Below, one piece after another: positions 8,618 to 22,504 of a DNA stretch of 33,323 bases. Every line of letters starts with the position of its first letter. The first letter of the stretch is position 1. Below the pieces are notes generated by a model. It ran no database searches, was not told the origin of the DNA, and was given only the letters and a program-made list of their open reading frames with translations. A program made the position numbers and the translations under genes. Source of the DNA: Sorangiineae bacterium NIC37A_2 (GTDB taxonomy: Bacteria > Myxococcota_A > Polyangia > Polyangiales > Polyangiaceae); NCBI GenBank assembly GCA_002085155.1, contig NASX01000048.1, forward strand, positions 1 to 33,323, given 5' to 3'.

Positions 8618-10300
8618 TCACTCGAGGTGCCAGGAGTCGATGCGGAAGCTCGGATTGTCCGAGAACCTCAGGCACAAGTCATGACCGCCGGAGGTCTCCA
8701 TGATGGGGCAGGAGAGCTCCTTGTACTCGTTGTTCCCGCCCGTGGCGGTGACGTCACAGGACCCTACCTGGGTCCCCTGGGCGCCCCGGATGCATCCGTC
8801 GACAACGACGTTGATCTTGCCGCCACCGTTTGCCGAAGCGACCTTCAAGACGATCTTCGTCGCGCCTTCGCGGAAGTCGACCTGAGAGTACGCGACCCAG
8901 TCGTTGTTGCTGATTTGGCCGATGTAGACGGTCTCCCCCGCCTTGCCTTCGACTTCGATGCCCTTCTCCTCGGCGATCCGCTCCGCTTGGACTTCCTGAT
9001 ACCCGTCGAGGCACTTGAGCTGGCTGACCGTGTAGTCCTCCGTGCTCATAGTGAGCGGCTTGATGGTCCCGTCTTCGTTGTAGGTGAGCTCCTGAATCGC
9101 CACGCTCCGGTTGTTGACCTTGTCGACCCCGAGCTCCTGCTCAAGCTTGCGGTTATGGTAGAAGAGATAATGCTTCCCTTTGTACTCGATGATCGAGCCG
9201 TGGTTGTTGTTGCCCCGGTTGATCGATCCGTTCGCGAGAAGAACGCCTTTGTACTGGAACCCGGACATGGGCGAATCGCTCATCAAGTACTCGAGCGCCG
9301 CCCCGTGACCCGCGGAGAAGTCTGAGGAGTAACTGAAATAGTACTTCCCTTCGTGCTTGTGCATAAAGGACGCTTCAAAGAACGCCGTCGTCGGGATCGT
9401 CGTGGCGGAAGTGTCCTTGAGGCTGATCATGTCGTCGTTCAGCCGGACGGCGCGGGCGTTTTGACCGCTCGGACCACCCCCGAAGTACAGATACGCCTGA
9501 CCATCGTCGTCGATGAAACACGCCGGGTCGAAGAGCCACGGCACGTCAGCGTTCGGGAATTGCGGCGTGATGAGCGGCTGGCCGTTGCGCGCATCCGTGA
9601 ACGGTCCCCCTGGATCGTCCGAGACCGCCACGCCGATCGCACTGCCAGAGTTCGGAATGTACATGTAGTACTTGCCGTTCTTGGCGCAGGCCCCGGGAGC
9701 GTAGAGGCGCGTGGCCCAGGGGAGCTGGTTGGCGTGAATGATCACGCCGTGGTCCTGCCAGTTGACGAGGTCGTCGGTCGAGTACACGTGGTAGTCGACC
9801 ATGTCGAAACCTTCCTGGCCGTCCTCGTCGTGGGACGTGTACATGTAGATCTTGCCGCCGTAGACGATCGCGTTGGGATCGGCGGTGAAGATCTGGGTGA
9901 CGAGCGGGTTGTGAGCTTTGGCGGTCTCCTTCGGCACACAGGTCGAGGCGGGCATGCCTCCCGTGCCCTGGTCGCCGCCCGCGCCGCCGCCGGCACCACC
10001 CGTCGCTTGAGCGCCACCGCTCGACGCCCCGCCACTCGAAGGATCCGCTCCGCCGGCTCCCGTCTGGGCGCCACCGGAGGCGACCGAGCCTCCGATCCCG
10101 ACCGCCGCGCCTCCTACGCCTCCCCCCGGCGCAGCGCCGCCGCTCGGCGCCGCAGCGCCGCCGCTCCCCGGGTTCGCCGCTCCGCCCGTACTTCCCAGGT
10201 CATCGGCGTCAACCGTCGAACTGCACGCCGATTGGAGCGCCAAGATAGCCCCGAGGGCCGTAGAGAAACGAATCAAAGGGAGGGGAGACTGTGAGAGCAT
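8618..10300 (-). CDS. GH43 glycosidase lipoprotein with CBM6-like module
   Basis: This 560-residue secreted enzyme probably removes arabinose or xylose units from plant arabinoxylan or arabinan. Residues 1-26 are a lipoprotein signal ending LQSAC (Cys26). A Gly/Ala/Ser linker spans about 36-116. The five-blade GH43 catalytic domain is at about 128-425. Likely catalytic residues are D141 (FTADPNAI), D258 (PWLFDPACF) and E309 (FFEASFMHKHEGKYYFSYS), with HGSIIEYKGKHYLFYHNR as a further family signature. The C-terminal 435-560 resembles a CBM6 carbohydrate-binding module (EVQAERIAEEKGIEVE, NNDWVAYSQVDF). This order resembles Bacillus XynD-type arabinoxylan arabinofuranohydrolases, but the exact specificity cannot be read from sequence. 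It is probably lipid-anchored at the cell surface. It lies downstream of, and in the same direction as, the alpha/beta hydrolase gene. Confidence 0.9.
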   Translation of the reverse strand: MLSQSPLPLIRFSTALGAILALQSACSSTVDADDLGSTGGAANPGSGGAAAPSGGAAPGGGVGGAAVGIGGSVASGGAQTGAGGADPSSGGASSGGAQATGGAGGGAGGDQGTGGMPASTCVPKETAKAHNPLVTQIFTADPNAIVYGGKIYMYTSHDEDGQEGFDMVDYHVYSTDDLVNWQDHGVIIHANQLPWATRLYAPGACAKNGKYYMYIPNSGSAIGVAVSDDPGGPFTDARNGQPLITPQFPNADVPWLFDPACFIDDDGQAYLYFGGGPSGQNARAVRLNDDMISLKDTSATTIPTTAFFEASFMHKHEGKYYFSYSSDFSAGHGAALEYLMSDSPMSGFQYKGVLLANGSINRGNNNHGSIIEYKGKHYLFYHNRKLEQELGVDKVNNRSVAIQELTYNEDGTIKPLTMSTEDYTVSQLKCLDGYQEVQAERIAEEKGIEVEGKAGETVYIGQISNNDWVAYSQVDFREGATKIVLKVASANGGGKINVVVDGCIRGAQGTQVGSCDVTATGGNNEYKELSCPIMETSGGHDLCLRFSDNPSFRIDSWHLE

Positions 10301-15142: not shown

Positions 15143-15290
15143 GTAACCTCTCCCGGCCCGTCCGGGCGAGCCCTCCGCACATCGGATCCTTCTTCGGAAC
15201 GCCGCGCCCAAGACGCGCAGGCTCGAAGGACCGTGAACGCCGAAGGGGCCTCTCCCACTCACTCGAGTGGTGAGCTGCCCCCCTGGCAGA
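15143..15290. other. Region downstream of the DUF1552 gene
   Basis: This short stretch has a small GC-rich inverted repeat (GCCCG/CGGGC) soon after the DUF1552 stop, but no T-tract. No gene was recognised. It leads directly into the palindromic repeat array. Confidence 0.3.
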
Positions 15291-15780
15291 ACTGCGCAGT
15301 GGGGCTCTGCGAGCCGATTCGACCATGAACTGCGCGCCGGGGCTCTGCGAGCTCATTCGAACATGAGCTGCCCTCGTGGAAACAGCTGCGCACCGGGGGT
15401 CTGCGAGCTCATCCGAACATGAGCTGCCCTCGTCGAAACAGCTGCGCACCGGGGGTCTGCGCTCCCATTCGACTATGAGCTGCGCACCGGGGCTCCGCGA
15501 GCCGATTCGACCAAGAGCCTGCGCACCGGGGCTCTGCGAGCTCATCCGAACATGAGCCTGCGCACGGGGGCTCTGCGAGCTCATCCGAACATGAGCTGCG
15601 CACCGGGGCTCCGCGAGCTCATTCGAACATGAGCTGCCCTTCGCGAAAAACAGCCGCGCCCGGGCGCTTCGAGCCCATTCGAACATGCCCTCCTCGAAAT
15701 GGCTGCGCACCGGGCTCTGCGAGCTCATCCGAACATGCCCTCCTCGAAAACAGCTGCGCCCGGGAACTCATCGAGCTCAC
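15291..15780. repeat. Array of about eleven degenerate palindromic repeats
   Basis: A unit with the core TGCGCACCGGGGCTCTGCG followed by AGCTCATTCGAACATGAGC recurs about eleven times. Short units are 36-39 bp; longer units of about 57-60 bp carry an extra GCCCTCGTGGAAACAG-like insert. Each unit can fold: ATGAGCT pairs with AGCTCAT and the inner CGCA with TGCG, around a loop near CCGGGGCTC. The example at 15591-15622 shows this without the insert. The edges of the array are more degenerate than the middle. Because the period changes and is often not a multiple of three, the frames across it drift, so I do not regard it as coding. It is not CRISPR: there are no unique spacers. Confidence 0.85.
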
Positions 15781-15808: not shown

Positions 15809-15858
15809 TTTTGGCCCCGGTCCATCACATCCAGCTCAGCCCAGCCGAGCCTTCTCCT
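15809..15858 (+). repeat. Dispersed 50-bp element, copy A
   Basis: These 50 bp match the inverted copy at 22455-22504 at 44 of 50 positions. The first 24 bases are identical, starting with TTTTGGCCCCGG. It lies between the two palindromic arrays. Both copies are intergenic, which suggests a genome-wide non-coding repeat family. Confidence 0.8.
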
Positions 15859-15900
15859 CCACTCACCCGCGCCGATCAGACGCACCTCACGCGGGGAGGC

Positions 15901-16087
15901 GGCGCGCGCGCCGCTCGCTCGAAGGAGCAGGAGAATCGCGCAACGCACCCTAAGAGAGCGGCGCGCGCGCCGCTCGAAGGAGCAGGAGAATTGCGCAACG
16001 CACCCTAAGAGAGCGGCGCGCGCCGCTCGCTCGAAGGAGCAGGAGAATTGCGCAACGCACCCTAAGAGAGCGGCGCGCGCGCCGCTC
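15901..16087. repeat. Three 55-59-bp direct repeats bounded by GC-rich palindromes
   Basis: Units at 15901-15959, 15960-16014 and 16015-16071 are nearly identical and are followed by a partial fourth palindrome ending at 16087. Each junction carries a perfect palindrome built on alternating GC: 20 bp at 15956-15975, 18 bp at 16011-16028 and 20 bp at 16068-16087. The interior of each unit includes GAAGGAGCAGGAGAAT and, in units two and three, the palindrome TTGCGCAA. Unit length varies by two to four bases within the palindrome and at a GCTC duplication, which looks like slippage. The frames through it are not preserved. Confidence 0.85.
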
Positions 16088-16472: not shown

Positions 16473-17045
16473 TTGTCTGAAACACCACCCACCATCATCG
16501 CCCTCTCGGGGAGCCTGAGGCGCGCGTCGTACAACACGGCCCTGCTCCGCGCGGCGATCCGAAAGGCTCCGCCCGAGGTGCGCGTGGAACACGCCTCGAT
16601 CGAGGAAATCCCGCTTTATAACGCGGATATTGAGGCGGAACAGGGCTTTCCCGAGCCGGTCCGAGAGCTCAAAGAGCGCATCGCCAGCGCAGCGGGTCTG
16701 TTGCTCGTGAGCCCCGAGTATAACCATTCCGTCCCCGGCGTTCTGAAGAACGCGATCGACTGGGTCTCCCGACCCGGCTCCGACATACCGCGCGTGTTTG
16801 GGGGCCTCCCCGTAGCCGTCATCGGCGCAAGCCAGGGCCGCATGGGCACAGTTCTCTCACAAGCTGCTTGGCTCCCTGTGCTCCGCGCGCTCGGCACGCG
16901 CCCATGGTTCGAGGCGAAGCTCCTCGTGAGCTCCGCTCAGCAAGTGTTCACAGAAGCGGGTGAGCTCACTGACGCGCGTGTCGAAAAAGAGCTCACCGAT
17001 TTCATGACCGGCTTTGCGGCTTTTGTCGTCGAACAGGGCCGGTGA
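16473..17045 (+). CDS. NADPH-dependent FMN reductase
   Basis: This is a 190-residue flavodoxin-fold enzyme that reduces FMN or quinone/azo/chromate-type acceptors with NAD(P)H in the cytoplasm. I chose the TTG at 16473 because TGAGG lies nine bases upstream; a TTG at 16467 is too close to it. The family motifs are clear: phosphate-binding GSLRRASYN (13-21), PEYNHSVPGVLKNAIDW (81-97) and PVAVIGASQGRMGT (113-126). Length matches the family (about 180-200). The gene precedes the trehalose operon in the same direction with a 69-bp gap, so partial co-transcription is possible. The physiological acceptor cannot be told from sequence. Confidence 0.93.
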   Translation: MSETPPTIIALSGSLRRASYNTALLRAAIRKAPPEVRVEHASIEEIPLYNADIEAEQGFPEPVRELKERIASAAGLLLVSPEYNHSVPGVLKNAIDWVSRPGSDIPRVFGGLPVAVIGASQGRMGTVLSQAAWLPVLRALGTRPWFEAKLLVSSAQQVFTEAGELTDARVEKELTDFMTGFAAFVVEQGR

Positions 17046-17078: not shown

Positions 17079-17090
17079 TTGGATATCCAA
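17079..17090. promoter_or_regulatory. Perfect 12-bp palindrome before otsA
   Basis: TTGGATATCCAA is a perfect palindrome, 24 bp before the otsA start. It lies between two complementary 8-mers, GGTGACCC (17041-17048, overlapping the upstream stop codon) and GGGTCACC (17105-17112). The second overlaps the otsA ribosome site. Together they could form an RNA fold that hides the ribosome site. Confidence 0.4.
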
Positions 17091-17114
17091 TCATTTTGTG
17101 GTAGGGGTCACCAC

Positions 17115-19337
17115 ATGCGCCCTGCCAAACGTTTCCTCATCGGACTTCTGGCCGGTCTCGCTCTCCTGAGCTTTCTGGCCCATTTCGTCGCTTCCCGCGT
17201 CGTGACCGGCTGGTTCGAGCAGGATCTCGCACGTCGCTCGGTTCTGCTCCTCCGTACCGTCGGGAGCTCACTTGATAGCTCGAGCGACCCAGCCACTCGG
17301 CTCCCGAGCGCCCTCGGCACGGACCCACAAAGTTCAAACTCCATCGGAGGTCTCCTCTGCTCCACCTCTGGAGACGTCCTCGCCCGAGTCGGAGCTTTTC
17401 CTGAGGATATTTCCTGCTCCTTGATCCTCTCCGGCTCCCAGCTTCCAAGTGTCGACTCACCCTTGCCCTGGACGCTTCTGGAGGAGAAAGGCGGCCGCTG
17501 GGTGCACGTTTCTGCCGCGCAGGTCAAATCTGGCAACAGCGTGCCCCTCACGCTTGCCCTCGCCGAGGACGTGAGCTTCCTCCATGACCGCATCGCTACG
17601 CTGCAACTCCTCTTCTTCACCCTCTTCGTCACGCTCGCCGTGGCGACGCTTTGGGTGAGCCTCTTGGCAACTCGAGAGGCCTTTCAACGCTGGATGGGGC
17701 TCCTCAGAGAGTCCATCAGCGGCACACCTCTCCCTCTGTTTCAGCCGATCATGCGGGAGGTACACTCGCTCGCCGAGCGGATCGTAAGCGAGCGCGAACG
17801 GGACAAAGGGGGGCTTTGGGGGCCGGAGCGTCTGCGCGCGACTCTCACCGAGCACCTCCACGGCGAGCGCATCGTCATCTTGGCGAACCGCGAACCTTAC
17901 ATTCACGAAAACGGGCCGGATGGAGTTCACGTGGTCCACCCGGCGAGCGGTCTCGTGACCGCTCTCGAACCTGTGATGAAAGCCTGCTCCGGGGTCTGGG
18001 TCGCCCACGGCGCCGGGAGCGCCGACCGGGAGACCGTGGACGGAAACGACAGGGTGCTCGTTCCGCCCGGCGAAGAGTCCTACATGGTGCGGCGGGTCTG
18101 GCTCACCGACGAAGAAGAAAATGGCTATTATTACGGATTTTCAAATGAGGGTCTGTGGCCTCTCTGCCACGTCGCTCACACTCGGCCCGTCTTCCGCGCC
18201 GAGGACTACGCCCACTACGTCCGGGTGAACCAGAAGTTCGCTGACGCGGTCTGTGAAGAGGTTGACTCCGAAGATCCGATCATCCTCGTCCAGGACTATC
18301 ACTTCGCTCTCGCCCCCGCGATGATCCGTCAGAAGCTCCCTCGAGCCACGATCATCACCTTCTGGCACATCCCTTGGCCGAACGCTGAGCGCATCGGCAT
18401 TTGCCCCTGGCACGAAGAGCTCATCACAGGATTGCTCGGGTCGAGTGTCGTCGGCTTCCATACTCAGCAGCACTGCAACAACTTCATCGACTCGGTCGGC
18501 GCGTTCCTCGAAAGCCGCATCGATCGAGAGGACAACGCGGTCATCCAAGGGACCCAAAAAACCCTCATTCGCCCCTACCCGATCTCGATCGAGTGGCCGG
18601 TACACTGGCTCGACAACATCCCGAAGGCCTCGGAAGTGCGCGGACCGGTGCGAGAAGAGCTCGGCCTCCGTCCCGACGCCCGGCTCGGCGTCGGCATCGA
18701 CCGGCTCGACTACACCAAGGGCATCGAGGAGCGCTTGCAGGCGGTCGATGAACTCCTCACGCACCACCCCGAATTCCGCGGAAACTTCAGCTTCGTGCAG
18801 CTCGCCGCCCCGAGCCGCACCAAGATCGCTCGCTACCGCGAACTCAATGAGCGCGTGGAGGCTCTGGCCCAAGAGATCAACGCCAAGTGGTCGGAAGGAA
18901 CCTATCGGCCGATCATCCTGCTCCGCTCTCACCACGAACCCGCGACGGTGTTCCGCTACTACCGAGCCGCGGACCTTTGTTACGTGAGCAGTCTCCACGA
19001 TGGCATGAACCTCGTCGCCAAGGAGTTCGTGGCGGCCCGCGACGACGAGCAGGGGGTCCTCGTCCTCAGCCAATTCACAGGCGCTGCGCGCGATCTCACC
19101 GAAGCGTTGATCGTCAACCCCTACGACTTCCGGCAGGCCGGCGATGCGCTCGCGACGGCGCTCCACATGTCCCCGGACGAACAGCGAGCCCGCATGCAGT
19201 CGATGCGCAAGGTGGTCTCAGAGTTCAACGTTTGTCGCTGGGCCGGACGCATGTTGGTCGACGCCGCCGAGCTCCGCCGCAAGGAGCGCATGAATGATCA
19301 GCTGGTGTCCTCAACGACCCGCGCCATTGCCTCATGA
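17115..19337 (+). CDS. otsA: Membrane-anchored trehalose-6-phosphate synthase (GT20) with sensor-like N-terminus
   Basis: The 740-residue protein joins glucose from an NDP-glucose to glucose-6-phosphate, giving trehalose-6-phosphate. The start is the ATG at 17115, eight bases after AGGGG. The GT20 domain spans about 250-720. It has ANREPY (257-262), ASGLVTAL (277-284), [10 protein letters not shown] (343-352), QDYHF (393-397), HIPWPNAE (418-425), GFHT (447-450), [14 protein letters not shown] (527-540, R530 and K535 binding the donor phosphates) and [11 protein letters not shown] (628-638, E637). The unusual part is residues 1-245. A membrane helix (about 6-28), an outer loop of about 130 residues with two cysteines (C82, C101), a second helix (about 163-185) and a HAMP-like stretch resemble a sensor kinase input module. 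Ordinary OtsA is soluble and about 470 residues. The stop overlaps otsB. A glucosylglycerol-phosphate synthase is an alternative, but otsB beside it favours trehalose. Confidence 0.92.
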
Positions 19338-20092
19338 AACACCTCTTCCACAACAATCACAGTGAGATCCTCCGAGCTCTCACCAAGGGGAGAGCTCTCC
19401 TCGCTTTCGACTTCGACGGCACCCTGGCCCCGATCGTCAAAGACCGGGGCAGCGCGAAGATGCGCCCGGAAACAGCCGCGTCCTTCAAGGCGCTGTGCCG
19501 GAAATTTCCCTGCGCGGTGATCTCCGGCCGCGGTCTCTCCGACCTCAAGCCACGCCTTCAGGGAGCGCGTGTCAAATACGTCATCGGCAACCACGGCATC
19601 GAGCCGAGCCCAGAACAAACCCGCTACCGAAGGGACATGCGAGAGGCCCTCGGCACCCTGAAGCGTGCCCTCGCTGACCTGGTCGGCGTCGACATCGAAG
19701 ACAAAAAGTATTCGCTCGCGATCCACTATCGACGCTCGCCGAACAAGCGCAGCGCACGTCAACAGATCAAGAAGGCGATCGAAGCCTTGCCCGTCGATGT
19801 TCGCTTGGTAACGGGCAAGCTGGTACTCAACGTGGTGCCCGAGGGTGCACCTCACAAAGGCGACGCTCTCAAGGCGCTCTGCAAGGCGGAGCGGGCTCGC
19901 GCCTGTTTGTACGTCGGGGACGACGTGACGGACGAGGACGTATTCCGTCTCACCGACCTGCCGGGTCTGATCAAACTTCGGATCGGGGCCTCCCGCTCCG
20001 GAGCGGCCGACTATTATCTGCGGGATCAACGCGCGATCGACGCGCTCCTCGCAAAGTTGCTCGACCTTGGAGATAAGGCGGCCGGACCATGA
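19334..20092 (+). CDS. otsB: Trehalose-6-phosphate phosphatase
   Basis: This 252-residue HAD-superfamily enzyme removes the phosphate from trehalose-6-phosphate to release trehalose. The nucleophile motif DFDGT has D26 and D28. Further signatures are ISGR (63-66), GNHGIE (85-90), the motif III lysine in EGAPHKGDAL (K175) and the metal-binding GDDVTDEDVF (195-204). All key residues are intact and the length fits the family. The ATG lies inside the last codons of otsA (ATGA overlap), and its own end overlaps the marR gene in the same way, so the three genes are translationally coupled. Cytoplasmic. The substrate is certain in family terms and well supported by the neighbouring otsA. Confidence 0.95.
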   Translation: MKHLFHNNHSEILRALTKGRALLAFDFDGTLAPIVKDRGSAKMRPETAASFKALCRKFPCAVISGRGLSDLKPRLQGARVKYVIGNHGIEPSPEQTRYRRDMREALGTLKRALADLVGVDIEDKKYSLAIHYRRSPNKRSARQQIKKAIEALPVDVRLVTGKLVLNVVPEGAPHKGDALKALCKAERARACLYVGDDVTDEDVFRLTDLPGLIKLRIGASRSGAADYYLRDQRAIDALLAKLLDLGDKAAGP

Positions 20093-20553
20093 GCTCCCGC
20101 CCCGACGCCGCCGAGTCCCTCGGACCCGCCCTCGCTTTCCTCGAGCGCCTGTGGGCGCTCAACCACGCCCTCGAGCAGCTCTCCGGGCAGATGGCGAAGC
20201 GCCTCGGCGTCACCGCGCAACAGCGACTCATCATTCGCTGTGTCGGAAAGTTCCCGGGGGTCCCCGCAGGACAACTGGCGTCTTTGCTTCACCTCGACCC
20301 GGGGACCATTTCCGCGAGCCTCGCGCGCCTCGAAGCGAAGGGACTCATCGAACGCAAACGCGATCAGAAAGACCAGCGGCGGACCTGGCTCGGCCTCACC
20401 GACGCCGGACGCGCCCTCGACTGCAGCACTCCGGGCACCGTCGAGTGCGCTGTCGAAGCGCTCCTCGCAGGAACCCACGTTTCTGACATTGAGGCCACCG
20501 CCCGCGTGCTCTCGAGCCTCCGGGCCCACCTCGAGCAGCAGCTCGAACCCTAA
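20089..20553 (+). CDS. MarR-family transcriptional regulator coupled to otsB
   Basis: This 154-residue winged-helix protein starts at an ATGA overlap with otsB. The helix-turn-helix runs through PAGQLASLLHLDPGTISASLARLEAKGLIER (about 59-89). The wing follows in RKRDQKDQRRTWLGLTDAGRAL (89-110), both typical of MarR. The N-terminal and C-terminal helices should form the dimer. Position and coupling suggest that it controls the trehalose operon itself or responds to the same stress, but no second copy of an operator was found to prove this. MarR proteins often bind small molecules or respond to oxidation. Cysteines at 51, 112 and 120 are present, with no evidence for redox sensing. Confidence 0.9.
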   Translation: MSSRPDAAESLGPALAFLERLWALNHALEQLSGQMAKRLGVTAQQRLIIRCVGKFPGVPAGQLASLLHLDPGTISASLARLEAKGLIERKRDQKDQRRTWLGLTDAGRALDCSTPGTVECAVEALLAGTHVSDIEATARVLSSLRAHLEQQLEP

Positions 20554-22309: not shown

Positions 22310-22454
22310 ATTTGGTTATATTGCCCTGGAGCCCGGCTCGGATACAATGTCGTTGGAATCTAGCCGAGCTGCCCGGGCCACGAACGTCCGGGAGAGCTGG
22401 CGTCGCCCGAGAGTCCCCCTCGACTCGGCCGCGTTCGCTGGCGGGGCCGAGGAC

Positions 22455-22504
22455 AGGAGAAGGCTCTGTCGGGCTCAGGAGGATGTGATGGACCGGGGCC
22501 AAAA
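22455..22504 (-). repeat. Dispersed 50-bp element, copy B (inverted)
   Basis: Read on the minus strand, this matches copy A (15809-15858) at 44 of 50 positions. It lies between cysH and the ABC-F gene and ends 36 bp before the ABC-F start, so it may be part of that gene's leader. The surrounding 22310-22454 shows no gene. Confidence 0.8.

Follow-up and report, generated by a model that had tools for sequence, protein, structure and literature searches.

Analysis of a 33,323-nucleotide stretch of DNA from Sorangiineae bacterium NIC37A_2 (the window, bases 1–33323 of contig NASX01000048.1 in a 5.0-Mb draft genome) revealed three overlapping genes, otsA, otsB and marR, the first of which encodes a predicted GT20 trehalose-6-phosphate synthase fused to an N-terminal module resembling the sensory part of a membrane-bound kinase. 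A palindrome ahead of otsA is a candidate operator for the regulator encoded by marR. The genes, and the parts of the OtsA protein, are as follows.

17115–19337, + strand: otsA (working name), predicted membrane-anchored GT20 trehalose-6-phosphate synthase with an N-terminal sensor-like module, 740 amino acids (aa)
17133–17189, + strand: first membrane helix (TM1) of OtsA, residues about 7–25, the helix running on to about residue 54; from hydropathy and model
17283–17573, + strand: outer PDC/Cache-like core of OtsA, residues 57–153, with Cys82 and Cys101
17607–17663, + strand: second membrane helix (TM2) of OtsA, residues about 165–183; from hydropathy and model
17664–17855, + strand: helical linker of OtsA, residues 184–247, with model helices to 201, at 207–231 and at 237–247; HAMP-like in register, not recognised as HAMP
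17871–19262, + strand: GT20 catalytic domain of OtsA, residues 253–716, PF00982
19334–20092, + strand: otsB, predicted trehalose-6-phosphate phosphatase, 252 aa, overlapping otsA by 4 bp
20089–20553, + strand: marR, MarR-family regulator, 154 aa, overlapping otsB by 4 bp

The otsA reading frame runs from an ATG at 17115 to a stop codon ending at 19337. Starting instead at an in-frame TTG (17079) would lengthen the protein by 12 residues; alignment of relatives led us to favour the ATG as the probable start. Both junctions, otsA/otsB and otsB/marR, are of the ATGA type and overlap by 4 bp, the overlaps having been stated in a preliminary description of this DNA, which had read the three genes as an operon with its own MarR regulator; the overlaps, a PF01047 match of the regulator (48.7 bits against a cut-off of 24.6) and the candidate operator agree with that reading. 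The otsB product passes the NCBIfam trehalose-6-phosphate phosphatase cut-off (105.7 against 68.05), and the draft genome yielded a single GT20 gene.

The same description had ascribed to OtsA an N-terminal extension laid out as in a sensor kinase, with the kinase replaced by a sugar transferase, and this layout was recovered. About 250 residues precede GT20, forming a helix, an outer domain, a second helix and a helical linker; TM1 and TM2 are about 130–140 residues apart by hydropathy, and exactly two cysteines, 82 and 101, lie between them. An AlphaFold2 model of the module, computed from 77 aligned modules, had a mean pLDDT of 85.9, with helices at residues 2–54, 59–67, 101–107, 154–201, 207–231 and 237–247 and strands at 77–82, 88–92, 119–125, 128–138 and 144–152, the long helices 2–54 and 154–201 flanking an alpha/beta core. 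The model thus predicts both the second membrane helix and the folded outer domain on which the sensor-like layout depends. In a model of full-length OtsA (pLDDT 85.9) the module was preserved and the GT20 part matched OtsA structures.

Foldseek searching with the module gave as top match an integrative, not crystal, model of WalK (9a5d, E 3.1e-6, 261 columns), which covers almost all of the module (TM-score 0.52, rmsd 7.3), next two chimeric LOV-kinase chains, and then crystal sensor domains of WalK, KinD and CzcS at E 4e-4 to 1e-3. VIA-align returned 4zr7 at Z 11.6 (2.8 A, 107 aligned), CpxA 8uk7 at 9.5 (2.6 A, 99 aligned), CHASE4 8z6n at 9.2 and PhoQ 3bq8 at 8.4, together with further sensor domains of chemoreceptors and kinases at Z 8–10. 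The predicted model and these matches place a PDC-type alpha/beta fold between the two membrane helices. A PDC/Cache-type sensor fold, the class to which we take the sensor domains of WalK, CpxA, PhoQ, KinD and CzcS to belong, is well supported as the predicted structure of the outer part of the extension, and a Cys82–Cys101 disulfide probably holds this domain together.

Only part of the earlier proposal of a HAMP-like stretch after TM2 stood: a helical linker is predicted, and a true HAMP domain was not established. PF00672 (HAMP) gave no match in the window OtsA, and for 77 modules at E≤0.1 no HAMP appeared among the 25 Pfam families shown out of 30. A profile made from 28 HAMPs of the same genome and its relatives (33 were tabulated and five skipped for short loci) aligned in register by hhalign at 9% probability (E 0.0036, one comparison), the positive control reaching 99.6% and two other regions 0.3–0.4%. 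With this profile hmmsearch of 77 modules gave an i-E of 8.7e-4 in one relative (L132), 0.019 in a second and at least 0.096 in the others. Neither Pfam nor the 28-HAMP profile establishes the label, and a weak in-register resemblance remains.

The enzyme part of OtsA looks intact, as had been claimed. PF00982 matches residues 253–716 with an E value of 1.9e-112 (376.9 bits against a gathering cut-off of 32.5) and is the sole Pfam domain found in the protein, in which neither HisKA nor HATPase was detected. Alignment by eye to E. coli OtsA showed that the motifs SNR/ANR, YY..FSN..LWP, DYH, HIP.P, RLDY.KG, SR and DGMNLVAKE are preserved, their residues presumably having the catalytic roles of their E. 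coli counterparts. Where E. coli OtsA has the first glycine of its GG loop, all 56 rows that were aligned, from a set of 59, have serine. The score against the OtsA equivalog TIGR02400 (409.4 bits) is below the cut-off of 564.85, and the protein is therefore filed as GT20, with OtsA as a working name.

A scan of named genome contigs revealed at least 580 confirmed GT20 relatives, the best 80 of which were examined for the module. From these a 78-sequence set was made by dropping two cut loci (L086, L089) and three duplicates (L071, L073 and L157, the first two equal to L034 and L045) and adding two loci of the phylum sample described below (L154, L155). A cysteine pair 17–21 residues apart was present in 77 of the 78 relatives (exception L084), and 75 passed the two-helix hydropathy test (exceptions L087, L090 and L123); W33, D37, D152 and R159, at positions near the predicted membrane exits, were invariant in 77 sequences. 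Tree labels included Myxococcota, Acidobacteriota, Planctomycetota, Pseudomonadota, Thermodesulfobacteriota, Nitrospirota, Bdellovibrionota and Gemmatimonadota, many of the organism labels being metagenome-assembled. Of 93 rows with a module match, duplicates included, 74 were flagged as having an otsB-like frame downstream.

In a tree of the GT20 part alone, with 46 rows (seven further sensor-less rows were skipped, the start motif not being found), a midpoint root and a tool warning of long branches, 31 sensor rows and one sensor-less row formed one clade with support of 100/99. The sensor-less row is an Aminobacter plasmid protein, and two others so labelled (L194, L040) branch just outside; L040 has a very long open frame ahead of GT20 and bears the label because no Pfam domain occurs there. 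A plasmid search matched 359 records; all of the 40 listed matched in the GT20 part and none covered 80% of the query, so that the sensor form was not encountered on a plasmid.

In a phylum sample of 282 genomes, 83 matched the full-length profile, two of them (G148, G178) through histidine kinases with an N-terminal match only; these matches give only mild support for a sensor-like module since their E values are borderline (4.3e-4 and 9.8e-4 per genome, with 282 genomes searched). The module precedes GT20 in seven of the 81 sample genomes with a GT20-part match, a count that may be too low with three candidates scored per genome, and a search with the module alone also found it in seven of the 282. 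The suggestion that the extension is a common inert anchor of GT20 proteins finds no support as a general rule, the module at this frequency not being a general one. In the bacterium's own family, GT20 occurs in 63 of 98 genomes; of the loci that were read, the sensor type was seen in the window and in 17 more, two of which are truncated by contig ends. The sensor–GT20 protein is thus a recurrent architecture and, in its own phylum, a minority form. It was also noticed that two same-family loci (L051 4191–6374 and L057 3984–6380) encode fusions in which the OtsB phosphatase domain precedes GT20, the reverse of the order suggested for other fusions, where GT20 comes first.

Several observations weigh against a sensory role for the extension. 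Pfam searching of OtsA residues 1–252 gave no model at E≤1, sensor and HAMP models included, and NCBIfam gave one irrelevant row (E 0.078). CHASE4 rows appeared in five of 77 relatives (best E 0.0027), the window having no Pfam Cache or CHASE match; such weak sensor rows mean little because the commonest weak row among the relatives' modules, in 27 of 77, was an irrelevant membrane-protein model. HBXIP, an unrelated protein of similar topology, stood in the fold list at Z 8.2. Confidence in the full-length model was lowest for linker residues 201–230, with block means of 53–59. The Aminobacter plasmid GT20 (L193 3782–5596) has a hydrophobic N-terminal stretch, possibly a bare anchor, and lacks the sensor domain. 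In addition, the window core (residues 57–153) is only 16–28% identical to those of 15 full-length family relatives at a GT identity of 66–82%, while for L034, compared in the same way with the 14 others, core identity is 25–67% and GT identity is similar. Of 49 conserved columns the window differs at 14 (the median is 3, and three rows differ at more), among them G128, G145, H151 and the near-invariant D-E-R, in which D73 (72 of 76 others), E74 (68) and R75 (75) are replaced.

The first alternative, rated as rather unlikely, is that the extension simply keeps OtsA at the inner membrane, perhaps close to envelope machinery or to a mechanosensitive channel, with the outer domain as a scaffold and not a sensor. 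The Aminobacter relative, the diverged window core and MscS-type genes among the neighbours (three of 61 proteins scanned) would fit such a localisation role. However, an anchor needs no folded PDC-type domain, and the conservation of the cysteine pair in 77 of 78 relatives, together with the invariant residues near the membrane exits, counts against this reading. As an observation in its own right, the Aminobacter protein is a natural sensor-less comparison within the same clade.

Alternatively, the family may consist of sensor-enzymes and the window copy may have lost its input, so that it would not be tuned from outside and MarR would be its main control; we consider this improbable. With a core so unusually diverged, sensing could be altered or lost in the window protein, and the low identities and departures at conserved columns suggest either a changed input or a decaying sensor. 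On the other hand, Cys82, Cys101, P96, D152, R159, W33 and D37 are all preserved, the frame is open and the model is confident, though leaning on the relatives' alignment, and a changed ligand would give the same picture. A sensory extension is the reading that we retain for OtsA.

The region ahead of otsA contains two inverted repeats.

17079–17090, no strand assigned: perfect 12-bp palindrome TTGGATATCCAA, candidate MarR operator
17097–17115, no strand assigned: second inverted repeat, TGTGGT-N7-ACCACA, its last base being the first of the otsA start codon

TTGGATATCCAA lies 24 bp upstream of otsA, occurs as one exact copy in the draft genome, and presumably resembles operators of other MarR proteins. 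MarR genes adjoining otsAB score 77–162 bits and other MarR genes in the loci 23–42 bits. Seventeen rows have MarR beside otsAB, including the window and two duplicates, and L199 was added later. In a first pass with a looser pattern the palindrome was present in 10 of 15 MarR loci and two of 82 others. In the strict count, which required TTGGN4CCAA within 150 bp, removed three duplicates and five short-flank loci, took L154 (= L199) as a MarR locus and left out L038 and L047, where MarR is present but otsA is cut, the motif preceded otsA in 8 of 14 MarR-linked loci and one of 75 others (Fisher 3.6e-7, among related loci), at a background of 0.0024 per 150 bp. In 10 of 11 displayed loci, which have exact or degenerate sites, the site ends 23–25 bp before the start codon (43 bp in L037). 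By eye, the exact site accompanies 8 of 11 MarR proteins with a D-type helix motif (DPGT/DRGT) and none of three with an H-type motif (L049, L090, L093), the motif lying in what we take to be the recognition helix; the D-type loci without the exact site are L044 and L048, with degenerate sites, and L154.

A position over the promoter is also suggested by eye, where TTGGA is followed after 17 bp by TA, often with TG before it, in the displayed loci; in the window the left half of TTGGATATCCAA could be a -35 element 17 bp before TAGGGG. MarR most likely binds TTGGATATCCAA and represses the operon, judging from the position and distribution of the site. Arguing the other way, a consensus promoter scan found no sigma-70-like promoter; the exact motif is absent from 6 of the 14 MarR loci; the Fisher value overstates independence because the rows are related, two of them (L033 and L041) being 94% identical; and TTGGN4CCAA also occurs at window positions 10232–10243, with 0.26 expected by chance and two or more found in 5 of 100 shuffles. 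The palindrome may instead belong to the promoter or to another regulator, with MarR regulating something else, since it could overlap a -35 element and one locus (L155/L198) has it with no MarR within about 3 kb downstream. We hold this to be unlikely, as the association with MarR loci and the absence of the site from the three loci with a differing helix motif both point to MarR itself.

Neighbouring genes were scanned as 61 frames from a simple caller in 41 of 80 loci. Besides the three MscS proteins, they included 17 of family GH15, 17 with a trehalase-like N-domain, six matching an MGH1-like hydrolase model, which may in part be the GH15 frames, and two MarR proteins; TREH_N had no match in the window's own genome. 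The GH15 frame of L072 (3161–4984) is 40–62% identical to ten other upstream frames, from several phyla (L074, L076, L078, L098, L101, L107, L111, L114, L115 and L122). GH15 lies on the strand opposite otsA in 8 of 11 loci, so that an operator between could serve both genes. In the window, an FMN-reductase gene on the same strand as otsA ends at 17045 and is preceded by two GC-rich tandem arrays (15271–15764 and 15904–16087), one with 10–11 degenerate copies of a 37–39-bp unit at a spacing of 38–56, the other with 3.3 copies of a 57-bp unit at 94% match. A pair of 65-nt inverted repeats, 82% complementary and outside the larger genes, flanks otsAB-marR (15809–15873 and 22440–22504), possibly as an interspersed element.

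From the computed architecture, predicted fold, conservation, gene overlaps and palindrome association we infer, with a little more confidence than doubt, that OtsA is a one-protein membrane receptor-enzyme whose outer domain tunes trehalose-6-phosphate synthesis and whose promoter is repressed by MarR. A PDC/Cache-type domain outside the inner membrane would be coupled through TM2 and the helical linker to the cytoplasmic synthase. A signal outside the membrane, guessed to be osmotic or envelope state, would move the helices and thereby alter GT20 activity or oligomeric state, and OtsB would then produce trehalose. MarR, encoded last in the operon, would add a second, transcriptional layer by binding TTGGATATCCAA ahead of otsA and repressing the operon. 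More tentatively, and with somewhat more doubt than confidence, a hitherto undescribed class of receptor-enzymes that span the membrane and occur in at least eight bacterial phyla can be envisaged, in which an outer PDC/Cache sensor directly controls a compatible-solute glycosyltransferase with no phosphorelay or second messenger; in some lineages the gene would lie in an operon that is repressed by MarR and has a conserved operator.

Control of trehalose synthesis in bacteria is generally ascribed to gene expression and to allostery of soluble enzymes. If the proposal is true, one protein, in which a membrane receptor is fused to the first enzyme, would combine sensing with osmoprotectant synthesis, conditions outside the cell membrane would directly tune trehalose production, and a glycosyltransferase would be added to the known outputs of Cache/PDC receptors. 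Since neither Pfam nor NCBIfam names the N-terminal module, annotation can easily miss the sensor part, and the predicted MarR operator offers a specific and cheap handle on the transcriptional layer. The domain combination is real and recurrent, and among the literature matches listed, with subscription papers largely outside coverage, no title or abstract start described a membrane-bound or sensor-fused OtsA. The word "transmembrane" does not occur in the first 300,000 characters of one such text (PMC11046441).

By comparison with the soluble OtsA of E. coli (1gz5) and M. thermoresistibile (5jio), the window protein has the same GT20 fold, with catalytic motifs at aligned places as judged by eye, but is extended at the N-terminus by about 250 residues that include two membrane helices; it also differs from E. 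coli OtsA in the serine of the GG loop and in scoring below the NCBIfam OtsA equivalog cut-off. The kinases WalK, CpxA, PhoQ, KinD and CzcS share with it the order of membrane helix, outer alpha/beta domain, membrane helix and helical linker, as well as the outer fold, whereas the window protein lacks HisKA and HATPase, has a glycosyltransferase as output and no recognised HAMP. In Arthrobacter, OtsA has been described as an osmotic stress sensor and self-assembling morphogenetic protein (PMC5685639); the likeness is that OtsA itself is tied to osmotic sensing, and the difference lies in the morphogenetic self-assembly, the word "transmembrane" being absent from that text. According to another report (PMC3634074), Thermoproteus tenax has a trehalose-6-phosphate synthase–phosphatase (TPSP) operon with a mechanosensitive channel, and its synthase is activated by a glycosyltransferase partner; trehalose synthesis is there likewise linked to a membrane protein and the synthase is regulated, but with separate proteins and a synthase–phosphatase (TPS–TPP) fusion in place of the single receptor-enzyme proposed here.

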